This document shows positions 14,867 to 63,405 of a DNA stretch of 64,000 nucleotides, piece after piece; the first letter of the stretch is position 1; the number at the start of each line of letters is the position of its first letter. Under the pieces are notes generated by a model, which ran no database searches, was not told where the DNA came from, and was given only the letters and a program-made list of their open reading frames with translations. The translations under genes and the position numbers were made by a program. The stretch comes from Saccharibacillus sacchari DSM 19268 (GTDB taxonomy: Bacteria > Bacillota > Bacilli > Paenibacillales > Paenibacillaceae), in NCBI RefSeq assembly GCF_000585395.1, contig NZ_KK073875.1, positions 4,164,600-4,228,599 on the forward strand. Direction: 5' to 3'.

Positions 14867-14891
14867 CCCTTCCCCTCTGGCAGCATAGGCC

Positions 14892-14936
14892 AAAAAAGCG
14901 CATCGCAGGAATGATCCTGCTCGATGCGCTTTTTGT
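14892..14936. terminator. Strong rho-independent terminator
   Basis: AAAAAGCGCATCG pairs with CGATGCGCTTTTT around an inner GGA/TCC stem, 26 bp after the XRE-cupin stop. It ends just where repeat A copy 2 begins. Confidence 0.9.
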
Positions 14937-14938
14937 TT

Positions 14939-15102
14939 TAGGGCGTGTACGCAAACTCCGCCAGGAGCAGATTGAGCTGAATTTTCGTTCTCGGCAAGGA
15001 ATTTTTCCGAAGGCGTGCCGGGGCACGTCAAGGGAAAATGACGCGGCTGAGGACGAAAAGGCAGGTCAAGATGCATGGCGTTGAGTTTGCGTACACGCCC
15101 TA
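14939..15102 (+). repeat. Repeat family A, copy 2 (best-preserved MITE-like element)
   Basis: This is a 164-bp element with perfect 20-bp terminal inverted repeats (TAGGGCGTGTACGCAAACTC), TA at both ends, and an internal CGTGCC/GGCACG hairpin. It is the same length and orientation as copy 1, with internal differences. It lies between the convergent XRE-cupin and 231-aa genes, ending 15 bp from the latter's stop codon. It has no coding capacity. Confidence 0.9.
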
Positions 15103-15116
15103 ACCTGACCTGTTTC

Positions 15117-17017: not shown

Positions 17018-17184
17018 GGGAAGATCAAACCTTTCTCTGTCAAAGACCGCCGAGCGGCCGATGGGTGATGTAGAATTACCTTTTCCCATTGTAGAGGCGG
17101 CAAGCCGGCGACTCCTCCTTCGAAAAATACAATTGAATGACAAGTTTGTTACGCCTAGAGGAATATATTCCCATTTATTGATAG

Positions 17185-17607
17185 TTATTTATCAATCAAC
17201 GCCGACAGTTCTCCGCTGAAGACCTTTTCGTTTTTGCCGTTATACGTAGATAAAAGAACTGTAACGATTCCGCTGCGGCGCTTCTCTTCAAGACCAATGA
17301 CTTCCGCTTCTACGCGAAGCTCGTCATCCGGGTAAACGGGCTTAATAAAACGAATATCATTCATGGCCGTGCCCGCTACGACCTCTTCCCCGTACGCTCC
17401 CGTCTCGACCCACAACTTGAACGATACCGCCATCGTCTGGATTCCTGAAGCAATGATTCCCCGAAATCTCCCCGCATTGGCTTTCTCTTCATCCAAATGC
17501 ATGTATTGCGGATCGTATACGGAAGCAAATTCCATAATACTTTCTTTGCTTAACGTGATTGAAGCCGTTTTAAAAACATGTCCAAGCGTAAATTCTTCAA
17601 ATTTCAT
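17185..17607 (-). CDS. MaoC-like hydratase/dehydratase
   Basis: This is a 140-residue hot-dog-fold enzyme. The substrate region is YDPQYMHLDEEKA (residues 30-42), with Asp31 and His36 matching the hydratase Asp/His pair. GIIASGIQTMAVSFKLW and NDIRFIKPVYPDDELRVEAEV are the standard MaoC elements. The length is normal for a single-domain family member. GGAGGTAAC precedes the ATG. It probably hydrates an enoyl-CoA thioester in the cytosol. It stands alone between the DUF418 operon and the dehydrogenase terminator, so its pathway is not given by context. Confidence 0.9.
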   Translation of the reverse strand: MKFEEFTLGHVFKTASITLSKESIMEFASVYDPQYMHLDEEKANAGRFRGIIASGIQTMAVSFKLWVETGAYGEEVVAGTAMNDIRFIKPVYPDDELRVEAEVIGLEEKRRSGIVTVLLSTYNGKNEKVFSGELSALIDK

Positions 17608-17663
17608 AACAAGTTACCTCCGAGTCGATAGATTTCGTTAAAGATACAAAGTGAAGCAACAGC

Positions 17664-17693
17664 AAAAAAGCCGTTCCGCAGGGAAACGGCTTT
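17664..17693 (-). terminator. Terminator of the aldehyde dehydrogenase gene
   Basis: AAAGCCGTT pairs with AACGGCTTT, followed by TTTTTTG on the minus strand. It lies about 90 bp past the dehydrogenase stop. Confidence 0.85.
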
Positions 17694-17784
17694 AACTTGA
17701 TCCTTGCGTCTGTCGATGTCGCCGTATATTCATTATCATACGCGCGAAAACGCCAAGCAAACAAGCCTAACGTTCATTGTCCTT

Positions 17785-19215
17785 TTATAAACCCAACGAA
17801 ATATACTTCACTTCCAAATACTCCTCAATCCCGTAACGCCCGCCTTCGCGTCCTACGCCGCTTTCCTTGAAGCCTCCGAACGGAGCTTGAGCAGTCGACG
17901 GCAGAGGATCGTTCAGGCCGATGATTCCGAATTCAAGCCGCTCGGCAATCTGTACGGCTTCGTTGATCTGTTCGGTAAATACATAAGCGGCCAGACCGTA
18001 GGGACTGCCGTTCGCCCGTTCAATAGCTTCGTCGATCGTACGGAACGTCGTTACCGGAGCGAGCGGACCGAAAGTCTCTTCGTTCATGCAGACCATATCG
18101 TCTGTTACGTCGGCAATCAGCGTCGGCTGCACGAAATGTCCATTGCCCAAACCAGTGACGCGTTCGCCTCCGACAAGCACGCGAGCTCCTTTGGAACGGG
18201 CGTCTTCGATCTGCGCCAGCACTTTGTCCACGGCCGCGGCATTGATTAATGGGCCGATATCCGTTTCTTCATTTAATCCGTTGCCGACTTTAAGCTCCGC
18301 TACTTTGTCCGCGGCAAGCTGAACGAATCGATCCGCTACCTTCTCGTGCACGTAGATCCGATTCGTACAGACGCAGGTCTGCCCGCCGTTGCGGAATTTG
18401 GAATCGATCATGCCGTCTACGGCTTTGCGCAGGTCGGCATGTTCGGTCACGATAAACGGCGCATGTCCGCCAAGTTCGAGCGATAGCTTTTTCATGGTGT
18501 CGGCGGCGCCTTTCATCAGTTCTTTGCCGATCCGGGTCGACCCGGTAAACGACAATTTGCGCACGCGCGGGTCCCGCTGCCAAACGCCTCCGATTTCGCC
18601 GGGATCGCCCGTGACGATATTTACGACTCCGGCCGGAATGCCTGCTTCTTCCGCCAGTTCCGCCAGACGCAAAGCCGTAAAAGGCGTTTCCTCCGACGGT
18701 TTGATCACGACCGTACAGCCTGCCGCCAAAGCGGGGGCCGCTTTGCGCGTGATCATCGAAGCCGGGAAATTCCACGGCGTGATAAGGGCGGCTACGCCGA
18801 CGGGCTGCTTGGTTACCCAGATGCGTTTATCGGTCGCGGAAGCAGGAATGGTCTCCCCGTACACCCGCTTGCCTTCTTCGGCATACCATTGAATAAAGCT
18901 GTTGGCATAATCGATCTCGCCTGCGGCTTCTTTCAGCGGCTTCCCTTGCTCAAGCGTCATGATCTCGGCAAGTTCTTCCCGATGTTCCGCGATCAACGCA
19001 TGCCACTTGAGCAGCAGCGCGCTGCGTTCGTTTGCAGGTAGAGCCGACCATTTCGAAAAAGCTTGATGCGCCGCATCGACCGCTGCTTGCGCATCCGCTT
19101 CCGTGGCTCGGGCGATATCGCCGATCCGCTCTCCGTTCGCGGGATTGCGGACTTCCATATGTTCGTTCGCGTCTTTCCACGAGCTTCCGATCCGTAACTT
19201 TCCTTGCTTATTCAC
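17785..19215 (-). CDS. gabD: NAD(P)-dependent succinate-semialdehyde dehydrogenase
   Basis: This is a 476-residue aldehyde dehydrogenase of the GabD type, oxidising succinate semialdehyde to succinate at the end of GABA breakdown. Key elements are TPWNFP (Asn149), cofactor Lys172 in KPSEETPF, FTGSTRIGKEL for nucleotide binding, Glu247 in LELGGHAPF, and nucleophile Cys281 in GGQTCVCTNRIYV. The CVC pair is a GabD hallmark. The C-terminus has GGFKESGVGREGG. It is transcribed alone, with a terminator at each end. No GABA transaminase or permease is nearby, so the substrate assignment rests on motifs only. Confidence 0.9.
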   Translation of the reverse strand: MNKQGKLRIGSSWKDANEHMEVRNPANGERIGDIARATEADAQAAVDAAHQAFSKWSALPANERSALLLKWHALIAEHREELAEIMTLEQGKPLKEAAGEIDYANSFIQWYAEEGKRVYGETIPASATDKRIWVTKQPVGVAALITPWNFPASMITRKAAPALAAGCTVVIKPSEETPFTALRLAELAEEAGIPAGVVNIVTGDPGEIGGVWQRDPRVRKLSFTGSTRIGKELMKGAADTMKKLSLELGGHAPFIVTEHADLRKAVDGMIDSKFRNGGQTCVCTNRIYVHEKVADRFVQLAADKVAELKVGNGLNEETDIGPLINAAAVDKVLAQIEDARSKGARVLVGGERVTGLGNGHFVQPTLIADVTDDMVCMNEETFGPLAPVTTFRTIDEAIERANGSPYGLAAYVFTEQINEAVQIAERLEFGIIGLNDPLPSTAQAPFGGFKESGVGREGGRYGIEEYLEVKYISLGL

Positions 19216-31882: not shown

Positions 31883-31910
31883 GCGTTTTTTAAAATAGGA
31901 GCCAAAAAAG

Positions 31911-31962
31911 CAAAAAGCTTCCCATCTGCACGAAACATCGCACAAATGAGAAGCTTCTTTTC
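31911..31962 (-). terminator. Terminator of the EEP-family gene
   Basis: GAAGCTTCTCATTTGTGC pairs with GCAGATGGGAAGCTT on the minus strand, followed by TTTTTGC. Repeat B copy 1 lies between the gene's stop codon and this hairpin. Confidence 0.7.
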
Positions 31963-32004
31963 CTAATGATCTTTATAATCCACCAAGAAAGCAAAACGTA
32001 ACTG

Positions 32005-32139
32005 GAAGCGAGAAGACGGAGAGGGAAATTCAGGTCAAGACGCCTTTGAACTTGGAAAACTTCAACTCAAAATTTCAATCGACTTTTCCAAGTGAGACAG
32101 CGGATTGAACGAATTTCTCTCGCAGTCTTCTCGCTTCCC
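32005..32139 (+). repeat. Repeat family B, copy 1 (long-hairpin element)
   Basis: The outer arms GGAAGCGAGAAGAC (32005-32018) and GTCTTCTCGCTTCC (32126-32139) are perfectly complementary. The inner arms CTTGGAAAA (32052-32060) and TTTTCCAAG (32085-32093) form a second stem. A conserved GTGAGACAGCG follows. It is shared with 39616-39745 and 61589-61740 and lies 9 bp past the EEP-family stop codon. Confidence 0.85.
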
Positions 32140-32148
32140 GCTCAACTT

Positions 32149-32976
32149 TTAGCTTCTCCCCAACTCCGCAACCAACGGATAATGGTCAGACGGGTACTTC
32201 CCGCCGAAGTGACGCCGATCAATCTCCGACCACCGAACAGCCAAAGGAGCCTCCGCAAAAATATAATCGATCGGTTCGCCCTCCACTCCGCCTGCAAAAT
32301 CATGGAATGTGCGTCCGCTTTGCCCCCGCAATTGCCGATAACCATCTTCCAAAGCAGGTACAGCGCCTTCGTTCGGCAGCTCTCCCCGTAGATAACGCAG
32401 CGGCTGATCCGAGGGTTCGCCGTTCATATCCCCCATTAAAAAAGCTGCATCTTCCGGGTGCATGTTCGCATGTTGCAGCATGACGCTACCTACAAGCTTA
32501 GCCCCCTCGATCCGTGCCGCTTCGCCGATATGATCGAAATGCGTGTTATACACACGAACGGTCGCGCCCGACAAGAGATGGCGGAAGCGCCCCCACGTGC
32601 AAATACGTGGGTAATCACTGTCCCACCCGAGCGAACCTACAACATCCGGCGTTTCGGATAGCCAAAATTGGCCTTGCTCCAGTTCTTCATATTCATCATG
32701 ACGGTAAAAGATCGCGCAGTGCTCGTCTTCATTCGCTCCGCGTCTTCCTTGCCCGATCCAGCGATAGTCCGGCAAGCCTTGCTGCAAATCTTCCAACATC
32801 AACACATAAGCCTCCTGTACGCCGAAGATCGCAGGCGCATGCGCCGCAACGGTCTCTACTGCCCATGGCGCACGCTGTACCCACTCATTCCCCTCGTCAT
32901 TGGCCGTATGCGTTCGCAGATTGAAAGTCATGACCTTCAGCTTAAACGCATCCGTGCCTGCTTGTTCCTGATTCAT
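32149..32976 (-). CDS. Endonuclease/exonuclease/phosphatase (EEP) family protein
   Basis: This is a 275-residue metal-dependent phosphodiesterase/phosphatase fold. The core motifs are all visible in order: LKVMTFNLR (Asn), IFGVQEA (metal-binding Glu), YNTHFDH, LMGDMN, EPIDYIF and KYPSDHYPLVAE (terminal Asp-His). GGGAGG precedes the ATG at 32976. No signal peptide is seen, so it is cytosolic. Members range from DNA-repair nucleases to sphingomyelinase- and inositol-phosphatase-like enzymes, and the substrate here is unknown. It is monocistronic, with repeat B copy 1 and a terminator in its 3' region. Confidence 0.9.
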   Translation of the reverse strand: MNQEQAGTDAFKLKVMTFNLRTHTANDEGNEWVQRAPWAVETVAAHAPAIFGVQEAYVLMLEDLQQGLPDYRWIGQGRRGANEDEHCAIFYRHDEYEELEQGQFWLSETPDVVGSLGWDSDYPRICTWGRFRHLLSGATVRVYNTHFDHIGEAARIEGAKLVGSVMLQHANMHPEDAAFLMGDMNGEPSDQPLRYLRGELPNEGAVPALEDGYRQLRGQSGRTFHDFAGGVEGEPIDYIFAEAPLAVRWSEIDRRHFGGKYPSDHYPLVAELGRS

Positions 32977-39297: not shown

Positions 39298-39379
39298 GCG
39301 CTCCGGGGCGTGGGGTTCTTACGATCTCGGAATTCAAAGGCGAACGCTCCGCTTCTTCAGAATCCCCAGACCCCTCCGC
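39298..39379. other. GC-rich long hairpin in the GH43 leader
   Basis: An arm around 39298-39319 (GCGCTCCGGGGCGTGGGG) pairs with 39359-39379 (CCCCAGACCCCTCCGC) with a few mismatches. It encloses a 39-base loop that contains GGAATTCAAAGGCG, similar to a motif in repeat B. A second pair ACCCAAT/ATTGGGT spans 39399-39436, with a CGGCCGA/TCGGCC stem inside. No ORF or promoter is clear in 39217-39597. Confidence 0.5.
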
Positions 39380-39615
39380 TAACCGCGTGCCCGGCCGACC
39401 CAATCGGCCTGATCAAATTCTTTTTATTTTTATTGGGTAGGTGTGTAAGGCAAATCTTTGCCGAACGCTAATGCTGCGGCAAGTCAAAGCAATAAGGATA
39501 AGTACAAAGGATAAATAAAATTGTGATAACGAGTATAAGGCAGTGCCGTTACTACTACCTAAAAAAACAAGAATGAGGCGTTTAAAGGGTGCAAGGGTTT
39601 ATTCCAGGCCGCGTA

Positions 39616-39745
39616 GCTTGGGGCGGAGGGGGAAATTCAGTGAAAGGCGCCTTTGAACTCGGAAAATTCCACTTAAAACTTTAATCAGCTTTTCCGAGTG
39701 AGACAGCGCCTTGAACGAATTTTCCCCGCAGCCCCTCCCGCAAGC
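39616..39745 (+). repeat. Repeat family B, copy 2 (long-hairpin element)
   Basis: The outer arms start GCTTGGGGC and end GCAAGC. The inner arms CTCGGAAAA (39658-39666) and TTTTCCGAG (39690-39698) are complementary, and the conserved GTGAGACAGCGCCTTGAACGA follows. It lies 22 bp past the permease stop codon in the same relation to the gene as copy 1. Confidence 0.85.
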
Positions 39746-39766
39746 CTCCCCCAGAATAACCCCGCC

Positions 39767-40663
39767 TTACCCTTTAATCCCCGAGTTCAAATTAATCGAC
39801 TGAACGAAATATTTTTGGGCGAACAAGAACAGCGCCAGCGTCGGAATGATCGCCAAGATCGCCGAGCCCATCAGTTGTCCGATCATCCGGTAGTTGCCGT
39901 AGATATCTTGCAGCAGTAACAGACCCGCCGTTACCGGCATCTTGTCGACGTCCGTGTACACGATAACCGGCCACAGGAAGTCGTTCCACGATCCGGTGAA
40001 CGAGAACAACGCGCAGACGATCAGAACCGGCTTGATCAGCGGCAGCATGATCGAGAAGTAAATCCGGAAGTGGCTGGCGCCGTCTACTTTCGCCGATTCG
40101 TCCAGGTCTTTCGGAATCGCAAGCATGAATTGACGTACCAAGAAGATGTTGCCCATACCCGCAAGACCCGGGATAATCATCGCCCACGGCGTGTTGACCC
40201 AACCGAGCGCGTCGATGATTTTGTAGGACGGAATCAGGTTCACGACGCCCGGGAAGAACGAAATCCCCAGCAGCGTGAAGAACAGGAAGTTACGGCCTTT
40301 GAAGTTCATGCGTGCGTAACCATAGCCCGTAATCGAGATGACCACGACGACAAGCAGCGTATGCGATGTCGCGATCAAGACGGAGTTCATCAACCAACGC
40401 AGAATCGGCGCCGTCGATGTATTTTCCAGAATTGCCGTATAGTTATCCATGATCCAGTTGACCGGAAGCAGTCGGAATCCGGTGCTTACGACTTCGGTCT
40501 GGGATCGGAACGATGTCGTGATCCCGAAGATGACGGGAACGATCCAGATGACGCAGAGCAATCCGAGGAATACATAAGCTACAACTTGAGAGACGCTAAC
40601 TTTCGTGCGCTTACGGCCTACGGCCACAGCGCTTTTATCCAAATCCATGACTGGGTTTGACAT
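39767..40663 (-). CDS. Carbohydrate ABC importer permease (MalG type)
   Basis: This is a 298-residue inner subunit with about six transmembrane helices. The EAA loop is ESAKVDGASHFRIYFSIMLP (about residue 193), which contacts a shared ATPase. Helices run at about 30-50, 92-115, 125-145, 160-175, 210-230 and 265-285. AAGGAGG precedes the ATG. It follows the other permease gene by 17 bp. No ATPase gene is present, so it probably uses a general MsmX-like ATPase encoded elsewhere, as is usual in Bacilli. Confidence 0.93.
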   Translation of the reverse strand: MSNPVMDLDKSAVAVGRKRTKVSVSQVVAYVFLGLLCVIWIVPVIFGITTSFRSQTEVVSTGFRLLPVNWIMDNYTAILENTSTAPILRWLMNSVLIATSHTLLVVVVISITGYGYARMNFKGRNFLFFTLLGISFFPGVVNLIPSYKIIDALGWVNTPWAMIIPGLAGMGNIFLVRQFMLAIPKDLDESAKVDGASHFRIYFSIMLPLIKPVLIVCALFSFTGSWNDFLWPVIVYTDVDKMPVTAGLLLLQDIYGNYRMIGQLMGSAILAIIPTLALFLFAQKYFVQSINLNSGIKG

Positions 40664-41640: not shown

Positions 41641-41672
41641 AAAAACGATATGCCCTTTTTGGGCATATCGGT
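41641..41672 (-). terminator. Intercistronic stem-loop (partial terminator)
   Basis: CGATATGCCC (41647-41656) and GGGCATATCG (41662-41671) form a perfect 10-bp stem with five bases between. A TTTTTT run follows on the minus strand. It lies between the binding-protein and permease genes and would give differential expression. Confidence 0.8.
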
Positions 41673-52009: not shown

Positions 52010-52882
52010 ATGGATGAAAAGCAGTCTAAACTCGCTTCATTTTTTCAACACCCGCTAGCATGGATGGTTATTGGTTTCGTCTTGCTTGTTTTGTGTAATA
52101 GCCTGCTCGGTCCGATGATCGGTTCGACGGATATTCCGTTTGTCGTATCAATGTCGCTCGTTAGCGGAATCGTCTATGTTGTCGCATACATACTGATCAT
52201 GAAGGCCATAGCGCGCCGCCGTTTGTCCGAGTTGACGCTTAGCCGCGCCGGACGCGAAACGCTGCTGGGCATCGGAACCGGTATTCTTTTTATCGGAATC
52301 AGCGTACTTCTTATTATGGCTTTCGGCGGATACAGCTTCCATTGGTCACCCGCCGGATCAACAGGCGTGCTGCTCGCTGGATTGCTGCTGTTTTCCAGTG
52401 CGGCTTTATTCGAAGAACTGGTATTTCGCGGCCTTTTGGTACAAGGAATCGAGCGCCTTGGCGGAAGCTGGATGGCGTTGGCATTGACTTCGATCTTCTT
52501 CGGCGGCGTTCATATGGCTAATCCGAACGCAACATTTCTAAGCGCCGCAGCCATTGCGATCGAAGCGGGACTTCTGCTCGGCGCAGCGTTCTTATGGCGG
52601 CGGAATCTATGGTTCGTTACGGGACTGCATTTTGCGTGGAATTCTTGCGTCAGTCTCCTTGGGATTCCGGTATCGGGGATTGATTCGGCGGGTTTGTTTG
52701 AAGTCCGCGTAGCGGGAAGCGATCTGCTGACGGGAGGTGCTTTCGGAATTGAAGCTTCGATTGTTCCGGTGATTGTGGGCCTGATGCTTTCGCTCTGGAT
52801 GGTAGCGCGTGCGCATACGGCGGGTCGTTGGCGATCTTTTCGTGAGCGGCGACAGGATATTTTCCCGCAGAAAAAAGCCTGA
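52010..52882 (+). CDS. CPBP family intramembrane metalloprotease
   Basis: This is a 290-residue polytopic membrane protein of the CPBP/Abi (Rce1-like) family with about eight helices. The catalytic motifs are EELVFRG (EExxxR), FFGGVHM (His), and LHFAWN (His and Asn), all inside the membrane helices. Related proteins process prenylated or peptide substrates or give bacteriocin self-immunity. The ATG at 52010 follows AAGGAG by about 10 bases. It is monocistronic and divergent from the ECF operon. The substrate is unknown. Confidence 0.9.
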   Translation: MDEKQSKLASFFQHPLAWMVIGFVLLVLCNSLLGPMIGSTDIPFVVSMSLVSGIVYVVAYILIMKAIARRRLSELTLSRAGRETLLGIGTGILFIGISVLLIMAFGGYSFHWSPAGSTGVLLAGLLLFSSAALFEELVFRGLLVQGIERLGGSWMALALTSIFFGGVHMANPNATFLSAAAIAIEAGLLLGAAFLWRRNLWFVTGLHFAWNSCVSLLGIPVSGIDSAGLFEVRVAGSDLLTGGAFGIEASIVPVIVGLMLSLWMVARAHTAGRWRSFRERRQDIFPQKKA

Positions 52883-52892
52883 GTTTCTCAGG

Positions 52893-53001
52893 CTAGTAGC
52901 TTGACCAAGTTAAACGTAAGGTTACGCCCACCTGAAACGCACCTAAAGCGTGTGCATTTCAGTCGAGCGCAAACCTCTATTAAGGTTGGCCAAGCTACTA
53001 G
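52893..53001 (+). repeat. Repeat family C, copy 1 (palindrome-ended element)
   Basis: These 109 bp begin CTAGTAGCTTGACCAA and end TTGGCCAAGCTACTAG, complementary but for one base. Inner CTGAAACGCAC/GTGCATTTCAG arms extend the fold. A shorter copy lies at 22832-22896. It follows a hairpin that overlaps the CPBP stop codon. Confidence 0.8.
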
Positions 53002-53024
53002 GCGGTCGAGAAAGTCACGTGTGC

Positions 53025-53092
53025 GCGAGGAAAGCCAGAAGAATCCGAGAGAAACTTCCATCATATGTTTCTAAATTTCATCTCTTCCTCGC
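53025..53092. other. Hairpin between convergent genes
   Basis: GCGAGGAA pairs with TTCCTCGC over a 52-base interior with an inner GAAAC/GTTTC pairing. It lies just past the stop of the 201-aa gene. No T-tract follows, so its role is unclear. Confidence 0.4.
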
Positions 53093-53116
53093 CTGACGCT
53101 TTATAAAGCCGGGACA

Positions 53117-53722
53117 TTAAACCAGAACAATTTCCGGACCGACAGGATCTTCTTTTCCATAATCGTTGTAGGCCCGCACACGGAATTCGATGTTCGATAA
53201 ATCATCAGGCAGTGGCGGACTGATGATAAAGTTCTGAGACATTTTGCCCGTCGTTCCGGATCCATTTTCCATACGGCAGTCGTAAGGTTGATCGCCCTGG
53301 ATTTCAAGTACAAATTCACAATGAATACGCTCGGAATAATGAAGATTAAATGATTCTTCCCAGTCTGCGCTTAATACAGCAACACTTGCATTACTGTATT
53401 GGCGTACGGTGACCACCGAGTAGAAAACTCCGAGTTGTTCAGCCGATCTCATCACAGGAATCTGACACCTAAATTCGTTCGGCTTCACTCGGGGCTTGTA
53501 CATATCCTCAAGATTTAAGGTAGAAAATACGGTATGCAGGTATTCTTCATAAAACCCGTATTTCTCTGCCCACTCTTTTACCACGACTTTGAGCGGATGT
53601 CCCGGATTCCCTTCCGCCAACTCTTTGCGCTGTTTGAGCAACTCGCAAATTTTTTCATCAACCGGCTGAAGCCTCTCGTTGTAATAACCGTCTTTTCGTT
53701 CAAAATCTGCGGCTTCCATCAT
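53117..53722 (-). CDS. Hypothetical protein
   Basis: This is a 201-residue soluble protein that I do not recognise. An N-terminal helix (LQPVDEKICELLKQRKELAEG, about residues 18-38) is followed by a globular part rich in beta strands and aromatic residues (QYSNASVAVLSADWEESFNL). The C-terminus reads IEFRVRAYNDYGKEDPVGPEIVLV, an FN3-like strand pattern. Of the three adjacent ATG codons, the one at 53722 lies 8 bases from GGAGG and is chosen. It lies after the broken GNAT gene with a small gap, so an operon with it is possible. Confidence 0.65.
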   Translation of the reverse strand: MMEAADFERKDGYYNERLQPVDEKICELLKQRKELAEGNPGHPLKVVVKEWAEKYGFYEEYLHTVFSTLNLEDMYKPRVKPNEFRCQIPVMRSAEQLGVFYSVVTVRQYSNASVAVLSADWEESFNLHYSERIHCEFVLEIQGDQPYDCRMENGSGTTGKMSQNFIISPPLPDDLSNIEFRVRAYNDYGKEDPVGPEIVLV

Positions 53723-61086: not shown

Positions 61087-61545
61087 ATGAATAATCGATA
61101 CAAAAGCGAAAAAGACGTATTTTTCTTCACAATGAATTGGGCCATTATCATCGCGCTGCTGATTCTGGTCTGGATGGGCCTCTCGACCGGAGGTTCGCTG
61201 CTGTTCATTCCGATGTGGCTGCTCATTTTGATGTTTGTCGTATCCACCTGGTATATGACCAACTACGAGATCGATAAAGGGCATTTGCGCGTGCGCTCGG
61301 GACCGCTGAATTGGAATATTCCGATCGACAAGATCGAGAAGATTCGGCGCAAGCGCAGCATGAGTTCGGGTCCAGCGCATTCGCGCAGTCGGCTGGAGAT
61401 CACGTACGCGGGCGGCAGCATGTTGATTTCTCCGGTGCGGGAAGAGGAATTTTTGAAGCAGTTGAAGGGGATTAACCGGAAGATCGCAATCGATGTGCCG
61501 GATGTGAAGAAGGATGACGGCGCGAAAAAAAACCTTTCCCGATAA
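61087..61545 (+). CDS. Membrane protein with bacterial PH-like domain
   Basis: This is a 152-residue protein with two N-terminal transmembrane helices (about 17-34 and 40-58). A PH-like domain of the YdbT/DUF304 type follows (YEIDKGHLRVRSGPLNWNI, IPIDKIEKIRRKRSM, LISPVREEEFLKQLKGIN). GGAGGCGGG precedes the ATG. It is a single gene with its own promoter and terminator. Function is unknown; such proteins are widespread in Bacillales. Confidence 0.82.
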   Translation: MNNRYKSEKDVFFFTMNWAIIIALLILVWMGLSTGGSLLFIPMWLLILMFVVSTWYMTNYEIDKGHLRVRSGPLNWNIPIDKIEKIRRKRSMSSGPAHSRSRLEITYAGGSMLISPVREEEFLKQLKGINRKIAIDVPDVKKDDGAKKNLSR

Positions 61546-61557
61546 GGGGAAGGTTTT
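61526..61557 (+). terminator. Terminator of the PH-domain gene
   Basis: AACCTTTCCC pairs with GGGGAAGGTT around a four- to five-base loop, followed by TTCTTCGTTTT. It overlaps the last codons of the gene. Confidence 0.75.
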
Positions 61558-61588
61558 CTTCGTTTTGAGGGGGTGGTTCGTTTGGGAT

Positions 61589-61740
61589 GCGCTGCGGGAG
61601 AAATTGCCAGCGTAGGCTTCCGAAGTGCATTTCTTCGAAATGCTTAACAAGGCGCTGTCTCACTCGGAAAACTGGATTAAATTTTTAGTAGAAGTTTTCC
61701 GAGTTCAAAGGCGCCTTTCACTGAATTTCTCCCTCCGCTC
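61589..61740 (-). repeat. Repeat family B, copy 3 (long-hairpin element)
   Basis: The same element as at 32005 and 39616, in reverse orientation. The inner arms are CTCGGAAAAC (61663-61672) and GTTTTCCGAG (61694-61703), and the outer arms are GCGGGAGAAATT and AATTTCTCCCTCCGC. An extra perfect hairpin GCATTTC-TTC-GAAATGC (61627-61643) sits in the arm where the other copies read AATTCGTT. It lies between convergent genes. Confidence 0.82.
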
Positions 61741-61842
61741 ACTTCGTCTCCCAGACCACTCTCTCAAAAGATGCAAGCTTTTGGGTGTTGTAAAAAAGAG
61801 CTTTCTTTTTCGGCTTTATTGGCCTTCAAAGATTAGACTTTG

Positions 61843-63012: not shown

Positions 63013-63148
63013 GAAAGTTCTCCACCCTTCCGGCATCCGCCAATCTCTGATATCGCTTTCATATATATTGTAGCGAAAAGAGCCTGCCAAAGAAAGTTTT
63101 ATAGATATAGGCAGATTTTCAATGAAATAACGCGGCTTTTGGCATAAC

Positions 63149-63182
63149 AAAAACGGCCTCCTGTTTGTCAGGGGCCGTTTTT
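63149..63182. terminator. Bidirectional terminator hairpin
   Basis: AAAAACGGCC pairs with GGCCGTTTTT around a 14-base loop (TCCTGTTTGTCAGG, itself self-complementary at CCTG/CAGG). It lies upstream of the oxidoreductase gene and downstream of the LysR-type gene. Confidence 0.88.
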
Positions 63183-63204
63183 CGCCGAAATAATCGTTTT
63201 TATC

Positions 63205-63405
63205 TAGGGCGGTACGCAAACTCAACGCCATGCATCTTGACCTGCCTTTTCGCCCTCTTCTGGATTCGTACTTAAACCGTGTACGATTCCAGCGACGCGG
63301 CGTCATTTTCCCTTGACGTGCCCCGGCACGCCTTCGGAAAAATTCCTTGCCGAGAACGAAAATTCAGCTCAATCTGCTCCTGACGGAGTTTGCGCACACG
63401 CCCTA
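63205..63405 (-). repeat. Repeat family A, copy 3 (with an inserted hairpin)
   Basis: The element is in reverse orientation to copies 1 and 2. Its ends are TAGGGCG-GTACGCAAACTC and the matching right arm, with TA at both ends. It is 201 bp because of an extra ~37-bp inverted repeat (CTGGATTCGTAC at 63260-63271 and GTACGATTCCAG at 63281-63292). The right end overlaps the 3' end of the LysR gene. Confidence 0.85.

Follow-up and report, generated by a model that had tools for sequence, protein, structure and literature searches.

The window, by which we mean the whole stretch of 64,000 nucleotides analysed here, covers positions 4164600-4228599 of the 6.08 Mb single-contig genome of Saccharibacillus sacchari DSM 19268. 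It holds three copies of a long hairpin and several terminator-like hairpins, listed below in window coordinates; for each copy, the extent assigned by a sequence-only reading and the match to our covariance model are given in brackets.

31915..31956, no strand assigned: terminator-like hairpin AAGCTTC...GAAGCTT on the 5' side of copy 1, with an A-run before and a T-rich stretch after it, as read from the sequence
31981..32162, plus strand: copy 1 including outer arms (sequence-only reading 32005-32139; model match 32011-32128)
39300..39384, minus strand: possible degenerate head-to-head partner of copy 2, a weak match to the second model (28.9 bits)
39584..39775, plus strand: copy 2 including outer arms, the arms placed by eye (sequence-only reading 39616-39745; model match 39618-39734)
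41646..41670, no strand assigned: single terminator hairpin CGATATGCCCTTTTTGGGCATATCG, an empty site by comparison with Saccharibacillus endophyticus
61531..61555, no strand assigned: terminator-like hairpin AACCTTTCCCGATAAGGGGAAGGTT flanking copy 3 on its 3' side, likewise read from the sequence
61562..61769, minus strand: copy 3 including outer arms, the arms placed by eye (sequence-only reading 61589-61740; model match 61630-61743)

A motif search placed the core GTGAGACAGCG at 32092 (+), 39698 (+) and 61653 (-). Three matches with at most one mismatch also occurred in 9 of 100 shuffled windows, so that the count in the window is not decisive on its own; genome-wide there were 191 exact core matches (74 on the plus and 117 on the minus strand) and none for a reversed-pattern control, and the covariance model gave at least 150 matches in the whole genome. 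With weak matches included, we counted 41 in a contiguous 644 kb of this genome and 38 in 620 kb of S. endophyticus; by extrapolation, the former density would scale to nearly 400 across the genome. The shared hairpin is therefore real, with the core motif at all three sites and a family throughout the genome. Its architecture is a single long imperfect palindrome with conserved irregularities. Copies 1 and 2 each fold into one long hairpin; copy 3 retains the inner hairpin, has an additional stem-loop in its 3' arm and carries a right-arm insert (GAAGCATTTCGAAGAAATGC...). The T-A to C-G change in the inner stem between copies and the perfect 14-bp match of the outer arms of copy 1 were both found as described; by eye, the outer arms of copy 2 read AAAGGGT..GGGTTTATTC / GAATAACCCC..ACCCTTT. 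In all six strand and copy combinations, none of 200 dinucleotide shuffles folded equally well (z -3.66 to -7.32), and thus both strands of the hairpin fold. Copies 1 and 2 follow minus-strand open reading frames that terminate at 32149 and 39767, at distances of 9 and 21 bases; the reported placement past stop codons and the first distance were correct, the second having been given as 22 bp. The corresponding mRNAs would contain the sequence of the opposite strand to that given here.

Two other dispersed repeats are present in the window. One, also palindromic, lies at 14867-15115 and 63101-63404, in parts of the window with no alignable counterpart in S. endophyticus, and has ends GGGCGTGTACGCAAACTC or similar and an inner part CGTGCCCCGGCACGCC; at another locus (L004) its sequence stands beside the hairpin core. 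The other, of about 100 bp, lies at 52861-53117, has ends such as ACCTTGTCAAC...GTTGACAAGGT around GGTTACGCCC...GAACGTAA, and is polymorphic between the two species, with an insertion found in S. endophyticus only (g0 183835). Elsewhere in the genome, at about 4325.7-4326.7 kb of G000:C1 (L051, about 17100-18100), 100 N are flanked on each side by a duplicated stretch, with two identical copies of the element; the 'single contig' probably contains an assembly artefact at this place.

Covariation over many copies, on which the sequence-only reading had staked its case together with non-random placement, turned out to be strong. In 25 simple copies, 15 of the 33 predicted pairs had changes on both sides and pairing was kept in 97.3% of cells. 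Both-side changes were seen in 62 cells, compared with 16.6 in shuffles, none of 500 of which reached that number. When the partner was shifted by 1-3 columns, pairing fell from 97% to 30-57%. The count of additional pair types in these copies did not exceed that in shuffles (209 of 500 as high). At the gathering threshold, Rfam 15 gave no match in the window or in 16 related loci. At a relaxed threshold, positions 31900-32250 gave seven sub-threshold matches, mostly to microRNA precursors, which we set aside as chance-like (the best, with E 0.0017, scored 24.5 bits where gathering requires 75). Nothing matching copy 1 was found in phage and plasmid collections.

Placement was likewise non-random with respect to gene ends, with both orientations relative to neighbouring genes present. 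It was assessed on 123 copies scoring at least 60 bits out of 146 found, 122 of which entered the analysis of ends and flanks, using our own gene calls and stretches that were picked for holding copies and are not a random sample. None of the 123 overlapped a called gene and 117 adjoined at least one gene end; of the 123, 46 lay between genes of the same direction in sense, 27 in antisense, 44 between convergent and 6 between divergent genes, compared with 56 divergent among 313 intergenic gaps longer than 150 bp. A terminator-like hairpin was present within 160 nt on the 5' side of 78 copies, on the 3' side of 38 and on neither side of 33; by a narrower measure, 91 of 515 gene ends without an element had a terminator of their own direction within 160 nt. 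Their distance from the core tends to be fixed: on the 5' side, 18 of the 57 that point leftward stand 36-38 nt away, and on the 3' side, 17 of the 26 that point rightward stand 39-43 nt away. Among 26 pairs of neighbouring copies less than 400 bp apart, some of them with weak matches as partners, 25 were head-to-head, and the remaining pair consisted of two fragments of one rearranged copy. The placement past stop codons fits insertion at terminators. Two head-to-head intervals of 1.7-2 kb were considered as autonomous versions and dropped, their long frames resembling, by eye, ordinary host genes.

The comparison with S. endophyticus allowed us to see how the paired changes arise. At the loci of window copies 2 and 3, the outer arms are the same in both species and enclose core A in this genome and core B in S. 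endophyticus, the ortholog of copy 3 also being without the right-arm insert, and copy 1 differs from its ortholog by paired changes in the inner and middle parts. More generally, the inner module at orthologous loci differs in both arms together, with outer arms and flanks unchanged. Apical identity over 17 distinct orthologous loci with landmarks was below 0.70 in six, 0.72-0.77 in three and at least 0.86 in eight. Because S. endophyticus has the other core inside the same outer arms, we conclude that the paired changes arise largely from the exchange of whole stem modules, presumably by gene conversion or template switching. At one locus (561110), both arms of the middle shell differ around an apical hairpin that is almost the same, which means that not every case can be put down to one conversion tract. 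Across 118 copies, arm-to-arm distance correlations were 0.35 for the outer, 0.41 for the middle and 0.57 for the inner shell, and cross-shell correlations were mostly -0.07 to 0.19; the exceptions, MR-OR at 0.49 and ML-IR at 0.32, rival some within-shell values, so that the independence of the shells is incomplete. Seven picked loci of the 17 that were comparable, namely the six with apical identity below 0.70 and window copy 1, had a module nearer to another locus of their own genome (0.89-0.98) than to the ortholog (0.60-0.90), in a comparison that sets one ortholog against the best of 170 or 123 modules, has no matched control and favours this outcome.

Ordinary decay was visible at the same loci. 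In nine orthologous loci with at least 85% identity, 51 pairs had changed, 8 of them on both sides, where independence would give 2.8. Another 16 kept pairing through a one-sided change and 27 were broken, which indicates some excess of coordinated change over background decay. Over all 20 orthologous loci, from which 3 of 23 shared rows were omitted (one assembly-gap duplicate and two fragments), 28 pairs had changed on both sides (16.2 expected), 36 were kept by a change on one side and 122 were broken. The small excess at orthologous loci, the strong covariation, which extends to 14 of 17 core pairs across genera, the sequence conservation of internal loops at fixed structural places and the position at gene ends could all be read as signs of a structured RNA element of mRNA 3' ends, whose fold is kept by selection on the transcript and whose mobility is secondary. 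An early, model-based count of 45 G-U to 28 A-C mismatches also leaned toward one selected RNA strand, but a count made without a pairing model (73 G-U to 93 A-C, and 1:14 in one subset) did not, so that the two counts point in different directions. Given the second count, and since both strands fold, the copies lie in both orientations relative to genes, and 43 of the 51 changed pairs were not compensated on both sides, we regard the RNA element as unlikely. The proposal that the fold is either selected or copied as a unit thus stands in its second half, as seen at the orthologous loci, and selection on an expressed RNA is unsupported.

The ends of the elements point to a mobile origin for a part of the family. 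By a loose end match, 44 of 122 copies belong to what we call type I and the other 78 do not; type I copies are mostly about 180 bp long, with termini TGTCGAGAAAGTC and its complement, and the elements in general measure about 180-220 bp and are without coding capacity, as none of the 123 overlaps a called gene. Type I copies and a 1558-bp insertion sequence (IS) of the IS1182 family both terminate in TGTCGAGAAA / TTTCTCGACA, with the common signature TGTCGAG...CTCGACA. This IS, with ends TGTCGAGAAAC, has two copies in the genome that are 99.4% identical, and occurs once each in two other genomes (G002 and G003, 90-91%). Ends shared with an IS of the same genome, as expected of a MITE, were thus found for the type I subset (L230 and L231), and IS1182 ends would apply to this best preserved subset of elements. 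The ends of the three window copies are degenerate or different, those of copy 1 having 8 of 29 and 11 of 30 mismatches to type I ends. Elements with type I ends and a different core also exist (core B, CGCCTTTGAAATCGGG / CCCGATTTCAACACGCG), and some other copies end in variants of GTCCTATTC, one polymorphic copy of this kind having an end, TGTCCGGAAATTCCTATTC, that is near the type I end.

In all four copies of the matching IS from three species (L230, L231, L237 and L238), the transposase is split over two frames, the N and C parts overlapping in their profile match, which may reflect a programmed frameshift or an inherited lesion; no single-frame version was present in the loci examined. 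A related intact IS (L228) has a 453-aa frame and different ends, TGTTGACAAAA. Listed repeat lengths vary widely within the IS1182 family. Other members are said, by Siguier in 2015 as cited in the work on IS1272 and TnSha1, to target palindromes. A further IS1182-type IS (L229) was set aside for its other ends and apparent 9-bp repeat, and IS1202, considered for the long duplications, was dropped once the IS1182 ends matched. In L228 (1376-1435 and 2881-2922) and L230 (1379 onward), the IS ends are hairpins in their own right, with perfect palindrome arms of 28 bp on the left of L228, so that a single IS end could seed such a small element.

The flanks show what happens to the target. Of the six IS loci with both ends readable, four have the hairpin exactly duplicated, loop included: 21 bp of terminator at L230 (ACCACGGTATCTGACCGTGGT), 20 bp at L231 (AGGCTCCGATGCCGGAGCCT), 26 bp at L228 (AAAGATCGGGCTTCGGCCCGATCTTT) and a 31-bp hairpin at L238 in G003, all as direct repeats. 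For the small elements, the flank pairs of 14 of the 44 type I copies lay above the 99th percentile of 300 mismatched pairs. Furthermore, in two of three clean presence/absence differences between the species, the terminator is duplicated: the hairpin at 41646-41670 is single in the window, and in S. endophyticus two diverged copies of it, with 14 bp exact, surround the element; similarly, GGAGCGCTAAGCGCTCC is single here (EV 105059) and has diverged copies on both sides of the element in S. endophyticus. From these polymorphic sites we infer that the direction of change was insertion and not precise loss. Several other interspecies differences look as if an element had lost its interior and kept its ends, and in the compared stretches (644 kb here, 620 kb in S. 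endophyticus) 18 and 17 model matches were species-specific. The duplications range from about 17 to 33 bp and track the length of the hairpin, as would be expected from joining at the feet of a cruciform. One could instead take the flanking hairpins for unrelated terminators, separately selected for two convergent genes and never duplicated, given that 44 of 123 copies lie between convergent genes and that the two flanking hairpins do not resemble each other at two of the six IS loci. Yet exact 20-31 bp direct repeats that include the loop, flank pairs beyond the mismatched-pair null and sites at which the other species has a single hairpin leave this explanation with next to no probability.

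We consider it probable that the hairpins are non-autonomous elements (MITEs) of IS1182-family insertion sequences, which insert at rho-independent terminators with duplication of the whole hairpin, and that their paired changes stem largely from the co-exchange of arms. An IS1182-type transposase would act in trans on the small elements, recognising the terminator as a hairpin or cruciform; the element, whose own ends would be brought together if it folded as a DNA palindrome, may be joined at the feet of the hairpin arms, and repair would then leave a copy of the whole stem-loop, the duplicated structure that we observe, on each side. Both arms of a stem shell may be copied or exchanged together between copies, giving rise to changes that look compensatory. 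Several observations stand against the MITE interpretation: the three window copies have degenerate ends and no recognisable duplication, with no hairpin matching the 5' one on the 3' side of copy 1 (flank score 11, null mean 12.9); 30 of the 44 type I flank pairs fail the null comparison; the third clean presence/absence difference against S. endophyticus (E2) has no clear hairpin duplication; and the hairpins on the two sides are unlike at two of the six IS loci (L237 in G002 and L239 in G012). The split transposase of the matching IS, the 78 copies outside type I, the different outer ends beyond Saccharibacillus and the incomplete independence of the shells also weigh against it.

The core is not restricted to Saccharibacillus. 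In a search with the core pattern, 59 of 61 named stretches among the matches listed were from this genus and the other two were chance; pattern matches in Treponema and Cryobacterium were discarded as not hairpin-like by eye and at about the frequency expected by chance. Weak matches of the first model in other genera proved real by folding, with the same kind of long hairpin and variants of CGCCTTTGAA / TTCAACAGCG at 11 loci in seven genomes of six other genera. A second model, built from 24 sequences of seven genera (14 from Saccharibacillus and 10 from six others), had both-side changes in the 14 of 17 pairs already mentioned. At E of at most 1e-4, and with up to eight matches scored per genome, it matched 345 of the 392 genomes sampled and 37 of 49 genera of the order, a grouping taken from the genome search collection (in NCBI, the family of Saccharibacillus is Paenibacillaceae). 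In a class-wide sample at 1e-6, 40 of 398 genomes matched, 38 of them in the order and two, with one match each, outside it. Most outer ends seen outside Saccharibacillus differ, and one locus in another family of the order (L258) has a TGTCGAG end and a duplicated 21-bp terminator. In contrast to the head-to-head pairs of Saccharibacillus, loci of other genera of the family carry tandem same-strand copies (L282 and L283; three within 0.9 kb, two 168 bp apart). We found no description of the repeat in open-licence PMC papers.

This distribution, with a conserved core and outer ends that vary by lineage (TGTCGAG; GTGTTCAAAAAG; AGTTTGA), together with the core swaps within fixed outer arms, raises the question of whether the core hairpin moves or recombines as a module in its own right, entering other hairpins or taking the place of their loops, with IS1182-type ends as one vehicle among others. 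We think this very unlikely: no enzyme for such a module was found in a search that covered IS1182 only, we saw no case of a core cleanly inserted into an empty loop, and homologous exchange between copies also accounts for the swaps. We offer one broader reading tentatively, as an idea with somewhat less than an even chance of being correct: a hairpin module of about 130 nt, spread through the order, with the CGCCTTTGAA / TTCAACAGCG internal loop, other stems that covary and no Rfam match, would ride on unrelated transposon ends and evolve by concentric exchange of stem shells, and in Saccharibacillus IS1182-type ends would insert it at terminator cruciforms and duplicate the whole hairpin, the fold of the target setting the length of the duplication.

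If the MITE interpretation is right, these elements show in nature a DNA transposition that is directed by structure and duplicates an entire terminator hairpin as its target. It would also follow that strong covariation in dispersed repeats may stem from the co-copying of arms and does not by itself prove a functional RNA. It would further draw attention to an abundant repeat at the 3' ends of genes, matched in most genomes sampled from the order (345 of 392), that had no Rfam match in the window and 16 loci searched.

To our knowledge, a hairpin-sized target duplication is not known for the ERIC, BOX and RUP repeats. Like the hairpins described here, these are intergenic, modular, foldable, MITE-like and present in high copy number (PMC2759123, PMC3049150), and they differ in sequence and in host. 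REP elements and BIMEs are likewise extragenic palindromes, often exceeding 100 per genome and paired in opposite orientation, but REPs measure 20-40 bp and are tied to RAYT transposases, whereas the present units measure 130-200 bp and have IS1182-type ends in a subset (PMC3733652, PMC2817692). IS1272, TnSha1 and TnSha2 share with the present system an IS1182-family transposase and terminator hairpins as targets; these targets have no sequence consensus, which the sources read as recognition of structure (PMC5678879, PMC4923244). IS1272 and TnSha1 take away all or part of the target stem-loop and do not duplicate it (PMC5678879, PMC4923244), whereas here, at four of six IS loci and two empty sites, the hairpin was not removed and was duplicated as a whole. 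Wan et al. (2017) draw duplication of the whole hairpin in their model as the hypothetical pathway b (PMC5678879), and this hypothetical route of the IS1272 work would, if our interpretation is right, gain natural cases. Finally, IS1272, TnSha1 and TnSha2 are autonomous or composite elements, whereas those described here are small hairpin repeats.
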